DNA from: a bacterium
Lineage (GTDB): Bacteria; Desulfobacterota_D; UBA1144
Length of the DNA: 11,183 bases
Assembly: GCA_002697665.2 (NCBI GenBank)
Contig: NZXA02000034.1
Coordinates: 14,159-25,341, forward strand
Direction: 5' to 3'
Shown here: piece by piece, positions 454-4,954 of the stretch
How the letters are laid out: every line of letters begins with the position of its first letter
Numbering within the stretch: the stretch's first letter is position 1
The notes under the pieces: generated by a model
What the model was told of the DNA's origin: nothing
Seen by the model: only the letters and a program-made list of their open reading frames with translations
Database searches by the model: none
Program-made: the position numbers and the translations under genes

Positions 454-1080
454 ATGAATAAATATATAGCAGAATTATATGGAACTTTTTTACTAGTATT
501 AGCAATTGTAGGAACCTTTATAATGACTCAATCTCTAGGAGCACCATCCTATGTCACTTTGTTAACGGTAGCATTGGCCGTTTCACTTGTACTACTTTCT
601 AATATTACAATTTTTTCAAAAGTCTCTGGCGCTCACTTTAACCCCGCAGTCAGTTTAATGATGTATTTAAGAAAAAATATATCTTTTCAAGAATTTATTT
701 CATACTCGCTCTTACAAATATTAGGTGCTGTCTCCGCAGTTGTATTTGCACATTTAACCTTTGACTTTGGACAAACTTCCATTTCTTTTGTTTCAAGAAG
801 TACAAATGGGATATTGCTATCAGAATTTTTAGCAACTGCTGGACTACTTGTGGCTATTATTCACTCAGAAAAGTTTTTTCCTGAAAGAGTGCCAACTGTT
901 GTTGCTTCATATATTTTTGCTGCTACTTTTTTTACAACCTCAACTTGTTTTGCCAATCCAGCTGTGACTATCTCTAGAATTTTTACTGATACAGGTGTGG
1001 GTATAAACTTAGAATCCGCAATGATGTTTGTTCTTGTTGAACTACTAGCAGTATTTATTGTTTCAAAGGCTATTAATTAA
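454..1080 (+). CDS. MIP-family channel (aquaporin/aquaglyceroporin, AqpS-like)
   Basis: A 208-residue inner-membrane channel of the major intrinsic protein family, slightly shorter than the usual 230-280. It shows the two MIP half repeats: AELYGTF with E7 in helix 1 and SEFLAT with E124 in helix 4. The first NPA is in SGAHFNPAVS (N63-P64-A65) and the second in CFANPAVTISR (N168-P169-A170). In orthodox water and glycerol channels the second NPA is followed by the selectivity-filter arginine (NPAR); here it is V171. The NPAVT form is what I recall for AqpS-type channels linked to arsenical transport, so the pore may pass larger or charged solutes. C165 is three residues before the NPA asparagine, the same offset as the mercury-sensitive Cys189 of human AQP1. 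No arsenic gene is nearby, so the substrate is open. The stop overlaps the convergent downstream gene by 4 bases. Confidence 0.88.
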   Translation: MNKYIAELYGTFLLVLAIVGTFIMTQSLGAPSYVTLLTVALAVSLVLLSNITIFSKVSGAHFNPAVSLMMYLRKNISFQEFISYSLLQILGAVSAVVFAHLTFDFGQTSISFVSRSTNGILLSEFLATAGLLVAIIHSEKFFPERVPTVVASYIFAATFFTTSTCFANPAVTISRIFTDTGVGINLESAMMFVLVELLAVFIVSKAIN

Positions 1081-1280
1081 TGCTTAGCTATCATGGATTG
1101 AATTGAAAGACTTACAGATGGATCTTCAGCAATACTTAATTGCTCTTCAATTTTTTCATTAACAATTCTATATGCAATTTTAAGCATATTAGTATCTGAA
1201 AAAACCTTAAAATAATCTAGACGTCTAATCTCATTTGCTAAAAGATTATAAGCTTGATTCTTTTTTTCTTTATTGCTCAT
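1077..1280 (-). CDS. Small protein of unknown function (67 aa)
   Basis: I do not recognise a family. The 67-residue product is soluble and probably helical, with a lysine-rich start (MSNKEKKNQ), a central part running LLANEIRRLDYFKVFSDTNMLKIAYRIVNEKIEEQL, and no cysteine or membrane segment. The ATG at 1280 is preferred over a TTG at 1289, because the TTG would overlap the predicted -10 box. A promoter, TTGACA-17-AATAAT, ends 8 bases before this ATG and there is no Shine-Dalgarno sequence, so a leaderless mRNA is likely. That promoter is the main reason to believe the gene is real. Its last codons overlap the end of the convergent channel gene by 4 bases. Confidence 0.6.
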   Translation of the reverse strand: MSNKEKKNQAYNLLANEIRRLDYFKVFSDTNMLKIAYRIVNEKIEEQLSIAEDPSVSLSIQSMIAKH

Positions 1281-1288
1281 GGTCAGCA

Positions 1289-1317
1289 ATTATTCAGTAA
1301 TAATTTATTTTTGTCAA
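1289..1317 (-). promoter_or_regulatory. Promoter of the 67-aa gene (leaderless)
   Basis: On the minus strand: -35 TTGACA (1317-1312, perfect), a 17-base spacer, and -10 AATAAT (1294-1289, 5 of 6). The ATG follows after 8 bases, so the start site falls at or next to the start codon. Confidence 0.65.
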
Positions 1318-1418: not shown

Positions 1419-1447
1419 TTGACATTTATAAAAGTATCGACTATAAA
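1419..1447 (+). promoter_or_regulatory. Promoter of the small hairpin RNA
   Basis: Perfect -35 TTGACA (1419-1424), an ideal 17-base spacer, and -10 TATAAA (1442-1447, 5 of 6). It is the strongest-looking sigma70 promoter in the window. The start site is predicted near 1453-1455, one to three bases before the hairpin. Confidence 0.75.
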
Positions 1448-1453
1448 GTTTAT

Positions 1454-1511
1454 ATAGGCTTATATCCTATAAGATCGTCTCCTCCTGATTTTAGATATAA
1501 GCCTTTTTTTT
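1454..1511 (+). ncRNA. Candidate small regulatory RNA with an anti-Shine-Dalgarno apical loop
   Basis: The predicted transcript is about 58 nt and is nearly all one hairpin. The outer stem of 11 perfect pairs joins AGGCTTATATC (1456-1466) to GATATAAGCCT (1494-1504). A 3-nt bulge (1467-1469) follows, then an inner stem of 7 pairs (1470-1476 with 1487-1493, one G-U). The apical loop is GTCTCCTCCT (1477-1486). The hairpin runs straight into eight Ts (1504-1511). There is no start codon, so it is not a small ORF. The loop contains CCTCCT, the anti-SD core of 16S rRNA, and its complement AGGAGGAG resembles a strong ribosome binding site. C-rich loops that pair with ribosome binding sites are known in sRNAs such as RsaE/RoxS and the CcsR RNAs. 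I do not recognise it as a named family; the function is inferred. Confidence 0.65.
1456..1511 (+). terminator. Intrinsic terminator of the small RNA
   Basis: A perfect 11-bp stem (1456-1466 with 1494-1504), followed by T8. It also isolates the oad promoter, which begins three bases later, from upstream transcription. The minus-strand reading lacks a T run, so the terminator acts on plus-strand transcripts. Confidence 0.8.
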
Positions 1512-1581: not shown

Positions 1582-1797
1582 TTGATAGGTGAATCTATAA
1601 ATTTCATGATTTTAGGGATGGCGACAGTATTCTCTTTTTTATTAATCATGATATTAATCCTAAAAATACAAGCTTTCATAATTGGTAGGTTGATAACAGA
1701 AGATAACTTAAGCTCTAACCCGGAAAGAATTATAAATGATAATAAAAAGGTTGCTGTAATATCAGCTGCCATAAAAAAACATAAAGAAAGCAAATAG
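1582..1797 (+). CDS. oadG: Oxaloacetate decarboxylase (Na+-extruding) subunit gamma
   Basis: The 71-residue small subunit of the oxaloacetate decarboxylase sodium pump; 60-90 residues is normal for the family. It has one N-terminal membrane helix (about residues 8-30, ILGMATVFSFLLIMILILKI), a short polar linker, and a C-terminal tail ending KVAVISAAIKKHK, like the VAVISAA tail of other OadG and MmdC proteins. In the family this subunit anchors OadA to OadB, and in Klebsiella its C-terminus binds zinc through histidines; here only H68 is present. The start is TTG, fixed by the ribosome binding site at 1567-1573. OadA begins 21 bases downstream. OadG sequences diverge fast, so the identification rests on topology, tail motif and position in a G-A-B operon. 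Confidence 0.85.
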   Translation: MIGESINFMILGMATVFSFLLIMILILKIQAFIIGRLITEDNLSSNPERIINDNKKVAVISAAIKKHKESK

Positions 1798-1818: not shown

Positions 1819-3633
1819 ATGAGTAAAAAATACATAGACATAATGGATACAACATTCAGAGATGGGTTTCAGTCGGTTTTTGGTGGTAGGGTTTTAATGG
1901 AAGATTTTATGCCAGCCGTAGAGGAAGCTGCAAATGCAGGAATAACTCATTTTGAATTTGGTGGTGGTGCCAGATTTCAAAGCTTATTCTTCTATCTTAA
2001 TGAAAATGCTTTTGACATGATGGATAAATTTCGTGAAGTGGTAGGACCAGATGCTAACTTGCAGACTTTATCGAGAGGAATTAATACAGTAGCCTTAGAC
2101 ACAGGTAGTAGGGAAATAGTTGATTTACATGCAAAAATGTTTAAAAAACATGGAACAACAACAATTAGAAATTTTGATGCATTAAATGATGTTTCCAATC
2201 TTCAATATAGTGCCGAATGTGTAAATAAGCATGGCCTTAAACATGAGGCTGTTATAACAATGATGGATCTACCACCTGGTTGTGTTGGCGCTCACACTGT
2301 AGATTTCTACGAAAATATATTAAAACAAATATTAGATGCGGGAATGAAATTTACTTCATTATGCTTTAAAGATGCAAGCGGAACTTCACATCCAAAAAAG
2401 GTTTATGAAACAATAAAAATGGCGAGAAGACTACTAGATGATAAAATGCATGTTAGGTTCCATACACATGAAACCGCCGGGGTAAGTGTAGCTTGTTATC
2501 TTGCAGCACTTGAAGCTGGTGCGGACGGTATTGATACTGCAGTGGATCCATTATCTGGAGGAACTAGCCAACCTGATCTATTAACTATGCTTCATGCAAC
2601 TAAAAATTCTGAATTTAATCTTGGAGATCTAGAATCAAATAAAATACTTAAATATAGAGAAGTCCTAATAGAAAGATTAAAGGATTATTATTTTCCAGGT
2701 GAAGCACAAAAAGTATCACCATTAATTCCTTTTTCTCCTATGCCTGGAGGGGCGTTGACAGCTAACACCCAAATGATGAGAGATAATAATATATTAGATA
2801 AATTTCCACAAGTAATAGATGCAATGGGTGAAGTAGTTGAAAAAGGTGGATATGGAACATCAGTTACACCAGTTTCTCAATTTTATTGGCAACAGGCTTT
2901 TTCAAATGTAATGTTTGGAAATTGGAAAAAAATAGCTGATGGATATGGAAAAATGGTCCTAGGATATTTTGGAAAGACGCCTACCAAACCAAATGATGAA
3001 ATTGTTAAGCTTGCATCTGAACAGTTGAAGCTTGAGCCAACAACAGAAAACCCATTAGATATTGCAGATAGAGATGAAAAGAAAAGTATAAAATATTGGA
3101 CACAAATTTTAACAGATGAAGGGTTAGATACAACCGAAGAAAATATCTTTATTGCAGCCGCCTGTGCAGATAAGGGGATTGAATTTTTAAAAGGTGAGAT
3201 CACCGCTAATGTCAGAAAAATTGATCAGATATCTGTTGGTCAGCAACAAAAAAGTGATACAAAAGTTAATAATTCTGCATCTGTTTATACAGTTATTTTG
3301 GATGGTGAAAAATATAATGTTCAAGTAGCTGAAGGAGAAAATATAGATATAACTCCTGCGAATATTGTCCAAAAAGTGCAAGATACAGAATCAATAAAAA
3401 ATAATGCTTCTGAAGCATCAGGACAAGGGGTTAAAGCTCCTGTCAATGGAGTAGTTGTAAAAATCATTTCTAATATTGGAGATAAAGTTTCAGCTGACCA
3501 AACTGTATTAGTCTTAGAATCTATGAAGATGGAAATTGAAGTAAAGGCGGGAAGTGATGGATTAGTTGCTTCAATAGATGTTACAAAAGGCCAGAATGTA
3601 GAGGAAGGTCAAGCAATATTTAGCTTAAAATAA
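1819..3633 (+). CDS. oadA: Oxaloacetate decarboxylase subunit alpha (biotin-containing carboxyltransferase)
   Basis: A 604-residue cytoplasmic subunit that moves the carboxyl group of oxaloacetate to biotin. The carboxyltransferase TIM barrel covers about residues 1-330, with metal-site motif DTTFRD (D10, D15), K184 in CFKDASG, and H215/H217 in RFHTHETAG. The conserved C-terminal PYC/OADA domain follows to about 470, then a flexible linker (471-535) and a biotinyl domain (537-604). The biotin lysine is K570 in LESMKME, 34 residues from the end, and the S replaces the usual A of EAMKM. The barrel has FRDGFQSV and [12 protein letters not shown] where Klebsiella OadA has LRDAHQSL and LECWGGATFDAC; this matches the Campylobacterota OadA/PycB subfamily as I recall it. 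The oadG and oadB neighbours argue for a Na+ pump over a pyruvate carboxylase B subunit. Its own Shine-Dalgarno is weak. Confidence 0.93.
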
Positions 3634-3637
3634 ATGT

Positions 3638-4954
3638 ATGAAAAAATTTATACTTTTTAGTTTTTTAATTTTTACTTTTTTTTCATTTATGAACTTAACT
3701 TCATACTCATCTGAAATTGAAAAAAAAGGTCCAGAAGAATTTGAAAAAAAGAATCTTACCGAACTAGTTAATAACCTATATAAATCAACTGGAGTTCATG
3801 AGTTTTTTAATCCTGTAGAAGGTAAACTCGATGCAGACAGGAAGAGCTCGATGTCCATTTTTAATCAGACATGGGGTCGAGCAATTATGATAATAATTGC
3901 TTTTTGTCTTTTCTACCTGGCTATTGCAAAAAATTTTGAACCACTTCTTTTAATACCAATTGGCTTTGGAGGTTTATTGGCAAATATCCCAATTGCTGAA
4001 ATTGCTGGACCAAATGGTTTTGTTGGAATTCTGTATACAATGGGAGTTGAAACAGGTCTTTTTCCAATATTAATTTTTATGGGTGTTGGAGCTATGACGG
4101 ATTTTGGGCCACTAATAGCAAATCCTAAAACTGCATTATTAGGAGCTGCAGCACAATTTGGAATTTTTGGGACACTAGTAGGTGCTGTATTTCTTACGCA
4201 AAATACCAATATTATCAATTTTTCTCTCCAAGATTCTGCTGCGATTAGTATTATAGGTGGTGCAGATGGTCCCACAGCAATATTCATAGCTTCAAGATTA
4301 GCTCCTGACCTACTAGGAGCTATAGCAGTAGCAGCGTATTCATATATGGCTTTAGTTCCAATAATTCAGCCTCCAATAATGAAAGCCTTAACAACAGAAA
4401 AAGAAAGGCAAATAAAAATGGTTCAATTGAGAAATGTAAAAAAAGTGGAAAAAATAATTTTTCCTCTTACTGTATTGTTTTTATGTATATTGGCACTTCC
4501 TGATGCAACACCACTTGTTGGGGCACTATGTTTTGGTAATTTTGTAAAAGAATCAGGTGTTGTTGAAAGGCTATCCGAAACTTTACAAAATGCTTTGATA
4601 AATATTGTAACAATATTCCTTGGTTTAGCAGTTGGCTCTAAACTTGCAGCTGATAAGTTTTTAGTGCCTGAGACCCTTGGAATAATCTTTTTAGGACTAG
4701 CTGCTTTTTCTGTTGGAACAATTGCCGGCCTTTTAATGGCAAAATTAATGAATAAATTATCAAAAGATCCGATAAATCCTTTAATTGGATCTGCTGGTGT
4801 ATCGGCAGTTCCAATGGCTGCGCGTGTATCAAATAGAGTTGGTATGGACTCAAATCCATCAAATGTACTACTAATGCATGCAATGGGTCCAAATGTTGCT
4901 GGTGTTATTGGCTCAGCAGTTGCTGCGGGTGTGTTAATCTCAATTTTTGGTTAA
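3638..4954 (+). CDS. oadB: Oxaloacetate decarboxylase subunit beta (Na+ pump)
   Basis: The 438-residue integral membrane subunit that decarboxylates carboxybiotin and exports Na+. The residues shown in Klebsiella to matter for Na+ are present: D210 in GGADGPTAI (D203 in Klebsiella), Y236 in AYSYMA (Y229), and N380, G384 and S389 in [10 protein letters not shown] (N373, G377, S382). [11 protein letters not shown] and [17 protein letters not shown] are also intact. An N-terminal hydrophobic stretch (residues 2-20) followed by about 60 polar residues precedes the first core helix. It looks like a signal sequence plus a periplasmic segment, and I recall such an extension in Campylobacterota-type OadB. 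It also lacks the insert Klebsiella OadB carries after GGLLSNIPEA. It starts 4 bases after the oadA stop. An out-of-frame ATG at 3634 opens only 8 codons, and the exonuclease ATG directly follows the stop. Confidence 0.95.

Follow-up and report, generated by a model that had tools for sequence, protein, structure and literature searches.

The window analyzed here, a stretch of bacterial DNA of 11,183 nt, contains a promoter-like sequence, a hairpin, and a run of T residues between positions 1419 and 1511. This arrangement raises the question of whether it encodes a small RNA (sRNA) that stands alone, and whether the hairpin loop could act on the Shine-Dalgarno (SD) sites of other mRNAs.

Promoter, hairpin, and terminator of the unit

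The elements named in the original prediction were checked against the sequence of the plus strand. The promoter (1419–1447) is present as described, with TTGACA (1419–1424) and TATAAA (1442–1447) separated by a 17-nt spacer, as is the T8 run of the intrinsic terminator (1504–1511). The perfect 11-bp outer stem is also found, with its 5' arm at 1456–1466 and its 3' arm at 1494–1504; its last pair, A1456-U1504, borrows the first T of the T8 run. An unpaired CTA (1467–1469) lies between the two stems. For the inner stem, a 7-bp helix with a 10-nt loop had been proposed, and the overall shape stands, but the predicted fold adds one weak G-U pair, to give 8 bp (1470–1477 with 1486–1493) and an 8-nt apical loop, UCUCCUCC (1478–1485), that this pair closes. 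With a start placed 7 nt after the −10 element and an end at the T run, the predicted sRNA is 58 nt long (1454–1511), and covariance-model matches cover it in related genomes (see below).

The predicted hairpin is far more stable than expected from its composition (minimum free energy of −20.5 kcal/mol versus −9 ± 2.77 for shuffled sequences, z = −4.15, with 0 of 200 shuffles as stable). Predicted unpaired probabilities across the loop are 0.99–1.00. In the 58-nt form, the 8-nt loop is predicted to be open at no cost, and the 10-nt window made of the loop and its closing G-U pair to open for 1.3 kcal/mol. A survey of 358,675 bases, or 35% of this genome, found 98 terminator-like hairpins; only two of them have a C-rich loop, namely the sRNA hairpin and one on the opposite strand inside oadA.

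Promoter matches in this AT-rich window occur at the level expected by chance (53 sigma-70-like sites found versus 58.2 expected). The sRNA promoter was not on the list produced by a simple promoter scan, because that scan demands a T at the last −10 position, and the sRNA hairpin was not on the terminator list. With promoter matches at chance level and the unit missing from both lists, the case that it goes beyond chance is one of conservation. By sequence and conservation together, the unit appears to stand alone as a promoter, hairpin, and terminator.

A window search against Rfam returned no match at 1419–1511, even at E values up to 5, and no gathering-level matches were found in the four loci scanned, L128, L130, L131, and L133 (L129 was left out). 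This agrees with the RNA having gone unrecognized when the sequence was first read.

Conservation, distribution, and genomic setting

Analysis of 14 genomes from the same family (77–94% complete) identified the unit in six, hereafter the carriers. It lies upstream of the oad genes in all five genomes of the window's own genus (G000–G004) and in one of the nine other family genomes (G010). A 16-nt block, TCGTCTCCTCCTGATT (1475–1490), which spans the loop and its flanking bases, is identical in all six carriers, with 16 of 16 bases invariant and no differences in any of the 15 pairwise comparisons. The stem arms differ at 2–6 positions within the genus and at 12–13 positions relative to G010 (counting its N). 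In the promoter, TTGACAT is invariant in the six carriers and the spacer is variable; the −10 sequence TATAAA is found in five, G003 being the one that differs.

To count base pairs, the six carriers were aligned with MAFFT using sequence alone, and one cell containing an N was set aside. All counted cells of the outer stem are paired, as are 83% and 93% of the cells in the two parts of the inner stem. Across the whole structure 95.6% of cells are paired, compared with 28–47% when the partners are slid by 1–3 columns. Three pairs change on both sides (in the outer stem, UA becomes CG and CG becomes UA; in the inner stem, AU becomes UA), and 6 of 500 shuffles reach that number. G010, the most distant carrier, accounts for all three; its stem also contains the N, and two of its inner pairs are broken. 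The other stem changes are one-sided and leave G-U pairs or, at three cells outside G010, no pairing. Because the genus also shows no variation in the 3' arm, both the contrast between loop and arms and the two-sided changes derive from G010 alone. The original prediction had looked for an invariant loop, compensated stem changes, and a retained T run in related genomes, and all of these are present, the run being T6 to T9 in the other five carriers.

A covariance model was then used to search 57 genomes of the class. The six carriers gave E values of 4.7e-15 to 4e-8, and nothing convincing was found elsewhere; with more than 40 genomes in the search, the filters applied were stricter, and some weak matches are lost to them. 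Each carrier contains one strong match, except that G002 has two on separate contigs (C11 and C15); their flanking letters are identical, and they were counted as one copy. The second of these contigs holds only residues 1–185 of oadA, and the sharing of the oad/sRNA region by C11 and C15 is probably assembly redundancy. Weak matches in G022 and G033 (E = 0.0014 and 0.0016) were rejected as long G+C-rich hairpins that lack a CUCC loop. A search of 40 relatives for the 16-nt block with up to two mismatches returned 37 rows in 23 genomes; outside the six carriers, none of the loci examined adopts the fold of the unit, an exact copy of the block in G017 included, and 6 of the 37 rows came without a locus. 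Ten matches to the block in viral contigs were all folded, and none has the hairpin with a T run.

Downstream of the unit are oadG (1582–1797, plus strand; the gamma subunit, PF04277), oadA (1819–3633, plus strand; the alpha subunit with a biotin domain, PF02436, PF00682, and PF00364, with TIGR01108 below its cut-off), and oadB (3638–4954, plus strand; the beta subunit, PF03977, with TIGR01109 over its cut-off), which together specify a Na+-pumping oxaloacetate decarboxylase. A separate promoter for this operon had been proposed, and a promoter-like site, TTGTCA-17-TAAAAT, is seen on the plus strand at 1514–1542, beginning 2 nt beyond the T run of the sRNA. Since the T run ends only 2 nt upstream of the oad −35 element (1504–1519), termination and oad initiation may interfere. 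Upstream of the unit are a divergent, conserved ORF of 67–70 aa, depending on the start codon (1077–1289, minus strand), and a gene for a MIP/aquaporin protein. The divergent ORF has no Pfam family, and its sole NCBIfam match, to malic enzyme, is far below threshold.

Six non-carriers contain oadA but not the unit (G005, G006, G009, G011, G012, and G013), and two, G007 and G008, contain neither. No aquaporin gene was detected in G006, G007, or G008. The divergent ORF and oadG are separated by 281–390 nt in the five carrier loci measured and by 137–139 nt in four non-carriers (the distance in L010 could not be measured). An ACTA(A/C/G)AAT −10 region is located at the same place before oadG in carriers and in five non-carriers (L005, L007, L008, L009, and L010). 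The loci L002–L010 come from the same assemblies as G001, G002, G004, G005, G010, G009, G012, G013, and G006, respectively, and so are not independent of them. Based on the retained oad −10 region and the shorter intergenic region of the non-carriers, the unit looks like a cassette that was gained upstream of an existing promoter in an ancestor of the carriers, or that was lost elsewhere.

We read the lineage as marine Dadabacteria-like. The window's assembly, at 90% completeness, totals 1,032,450 bases over 43 contigs, and the available text of one study describes marine Dadabacteria genomes as streamlined (PMC8115339). A text search of the main text of that paper found neither "sRNA" nor "non-coding," and the titles and abstract openings of literature combining Dadabacteria with small RNA held nothing on sRNAs of this group. 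No Hfq match was found in the 14 family genomes, in a search that detected Hfq in 5 of 14 reference genomes used as a control.

Shine-Dalgarno use and candidate targets

The 16S rRNA of the window's genome ends in GGATCACCTCCTTA. This tail contains CCUCCU, so the CCUCCU of the loop corresponds to the anti-SD core, as the original prediction had it, and the loop is predicted to be accessible and complementary to SD sequences. Within the sampled part of this genome, a 5-nt anti-SD match occurs at −20 to −4 in 48 of 252 starts, compared with 26 of 252 at −70 to −54, and at least 6 nt complementary to the loop occur in 21 of 252 starts at −20 to −4, compared with 3 of 252 at −70 to −54. The SD sequence is thus used by a minority of genes in this genome, and because that use is partial, SD-led genes exist for such a loop to hit. 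The proposal that the RNA would act on an SD-led subset is therefore a reasonable one.

Candidate targets were sought in samples of five genomes of ∼1.0 Mb each (358,675 of 1,032,450 bases for G000, 400,000 for G001, 381,205 for G003, 355,006 for G010, and 400,000 for the non-carrier G005). Gene models were non-overlapping longest ORFs of at least 90 or at least 60 aa, depending on the test. Comparisons of carriers with non-carriers used ortholog-consistent starts and dropped starts too near the end of a stretch, and the ortholog-based test left out any cluster in which a genome was represented by several genes. The original prediction had looked to start regions for targets, but in these partial samples starts with at least 6 loop-complementary nt are no commoner in carriers (21/252, 16/263, 19/285, and 20/256) than in G005 (22/245).

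At gene starts in the carrier samples, the real block scores much like the reversed block, but reversal leaves CCTCCTC in place and so makes for a weak control. In G000, 72 of 354 starts give predicted duplexes of −10 kcal/mol or stronger, a count that none of 40 shuffled loops attains (mean of 50.4, highest 69); at −9 and −8 kcal/mol, the real loop falls within the range of the 40 shuffled loops. The excess over shuffled loops may reflect general SD use alone. Across the 14 genomes, the complement of the block with up to three mismatches occurs 41 times in the six carriers (21 for the reversed control) and 42 times in the eight non-carriers (33 for the control), in counts that exclude seven self-hits on the unit, show a mild excess over the control, and are not tied to gene starts. 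The most closely related genomes (G000, G001, and G002) share some of these hits; by eye, none is present in all six carriers.

The best conserved candidate site is the leader TATCAAGGAGGAGTGTTAATG of a 67–69-aa ORF without a Pfam family, for which a duplex of −16.2 kcal/mol is predicted in all six carriers. Few starts reach this value: 1 of 263 in G001, which is this ORF, 1 of 252 in G000, 2 of 285 in G003, and 3 of 256 in G010. The ORF falls outside the G000 sample, where a looser choice of starts yields two other sites, at −16.8 and −16.3 kcal/mol. The same leader core is predicted to pair at −16.2 to −16.4 kcal/mol in the non-carriers G007, G008, G009, G011, and G012; among the six non-carriers whose leader was read (G006 and G013 were not recovered), G005 is the only one that differs (−12.2 kcal/mol). 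Since five of these six non-carriers share the leader, the site either is older than the sRNA or is maintained for reasons of its own, and we regard the ORF as a candidate target only. Other leaders of interest from the target tests belong to ORFs that, judged by eye, resemble the F0 c subunit and GroEL.

Two other features of these start regions were observed. The leader of a 64–69-aa ORF, TATCAAGGAGGAGTGTT, is unusually conserved, being present in 11 of 12 genomes of the family that were read, including five without the sRNA (L292:1501 on the reverse strand, with orthologs in L288–L299, and G001:C5:84161). The product has one hydrophobic stretch followed by a polar tail, the G000 copy has no Pfam family, and the ORF looks like one for a highly expressed, uncharacterized membrane protein. 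In addition, a likely start in G007, which lacks the sRNA, is associated with CATCAGGAGGAGACAAATG, a sequence nearly complementary to the block (G007:C13:3607–3622, locus L134).

Alternative readings, proposed mechanism, and related sRNAs

The position of the unit suggests that it might instead control oadGAB in cis, either because terminating polymerase hinders use of the oad −35 element or because the CUCCU loop of a read-through leader masks the oadG SD sequence, AAGGAG. The T run does stop 2 nt before the oad −35 element, the unit adjoins oad in all six carriers, and the two genomes without oadA, G007 and G008, also lack the unit. These two genomes also lack the aquaporin gene, however, so loss of the whole block, or an assembly gap at it, explains the joint absence of oadA and the unit. 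Moreover, transcription interference needs no invariant loop, the match between the loop and the oadG SD sequence is just 5 contiguous bp (CUCCU/AGGAG), and AAGGAG is present before oadG in non-carriers too; we judge cis control to be unlikely. It is also conceivable, though we give it a small chance, that the invariant loop is a binding element or decoy for a ribosomal or RNA-binding protein and not an antisense seed. The conserved 16 nt are wider than the 8-nt open loop, and complementarity gives no clear regulon, as such a role would allow. The flanking bases close the inner stem, though, which may suffice to keep them, and the unpaired bases match an anti-SD sequence exactly. CsrA-type proteins bind a GGA motif, which here would lie on the other strand, where no T run follows the hairpin.

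The unit could also be a plain terminator, or an insulator made of a promoter and a terminator, that yields no regulatory RNA and whose loop is identical through shared recent ancestry. It is found in only six genomes, five of them from one genus, and the 3' arm is invariant within that genus. Terminator loops, however, are normally free to drift, and the G010 loop is identical even though its arms differ at 12–13 positions with compensation; the TTGACAT promoter is kept as well. We consider this reading very improbable.

We therefore favor, with some confidence, the reading that positions 1454–1511 encode a free-standing, Hfq-independent, trans-acting sRNA of ∼58 nt that would block SD sites; its transcription, its start and end, its pairing with targets, and the direction of regulation are all inferred. 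In the mechanism we propose, the terminator hairpin would be the entire sRNA molecule. The outer stem would provide transcription termination and RNA stability, and the inner stem would display UCUCCUCC as an open loop. This loop would pair with purine-rich SD stretches of the GGAGGA type in a restricted group of mRNAs, and the conserved bases flanking it could open and lengthen the duplex. By competing with the 30S subunit at these sites, the sRNA would reduce translation of the mRNAs it binds. Given the lack of an Hfq match, a compact hairpin that is complete in itself and exposes a C-rich loop is consistent with pairing that needs no chaperone.

If this mechanism is correct, a conserved sRNA has been kept in a 1-Mb streamlined genome without detectable Hfq, anti-SD-loop riboregulation arose again in a distant lineage, and the unit would offer a compact model for chaperone-free, SD-directed repression. 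A bolder version, which we put forward as speculation with little expectation that it holds, is that this is a minimal one-hairpin regulator of an Hfq-less, streamlined candidate phylum. Here the terminator would itself be the regulator and its loop a mimic of the 16S tail, tuning translation of the minority of SD-led genes collectively and not that of a few specific mRNAs, and it would have arisen independently of the proteobacterial and Gram-positive sRNAs with C-rich loops.

The strategy of an anti-SD loop is already known in other bacteria and was apparently invented separately here. The best reading of our analysis is that the sRNA represents a new family of a known kind, one that would act like alpha-r14/CcsR or other C-rich-loop sRNAs without being a member of these families. 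In Firmicutes, RsaE/RoxS uses C-rich (UCCC) unpaired stretches to pair near SD sites; it is a larger RNA with another motif, and the window gave no Rfam match at the unit.

Among the systems compared, the alpha-r14/NfeR1/SmelA075 and CcsR ("cuckoo") sRNAs of Alphaproteobacteria are described, in the available text of PMC10746234 and PMC3927594, as having an ultraconserved anti-SD loop motif, CCUCCUCCC, variable stems, and two to four hairpins. As far as these descriptions go, the sRNA analyzed here resembles them in its ultraconserved anti-SD loop over divergent stems (in six genomes) but differs in the loop itself, which is GUCUCCUCCU within the block TCGTCTCCTCCTGATT in all six carriers and not CCUCCUCCC. 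It also differs in having one hairpin per locus, in its location beside oad, in belonging to another phylum, and in having no Rfam match. A DUF1127 protein often accompanies CcsR-like loci, according to the portion of PMC10253847 available; none was found among the seven nearest ORFs of the window scanned with Pfam.

The 6C/B11 sRNAs of Actinobacteria, as presented in the available part of PMC10470900, have two C-rich loops and repress an mRNA with a G tract, and the title of a study cited there states that 6C is chaperone-independent. A C-rich loop is common to these RNAs and the one analyzed here; on that description, 6C/B11 differ in their two loops and in their phylum, and the sRNA here has no Rfam match. 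For sX13 of Xanthomonas, the available text of PMC3771888 reports Hfq-free action through C-rich loops on G-rich motifs near target starts, by an RNA of 115 nt with three stem-loops and a CCCC motif in loops 1 and 2. Judged by that text, sX13 and the sRNA described here both display a C-rich loop, whereas sX13 is longer and is built of three stem-loops in place of one hairpin.
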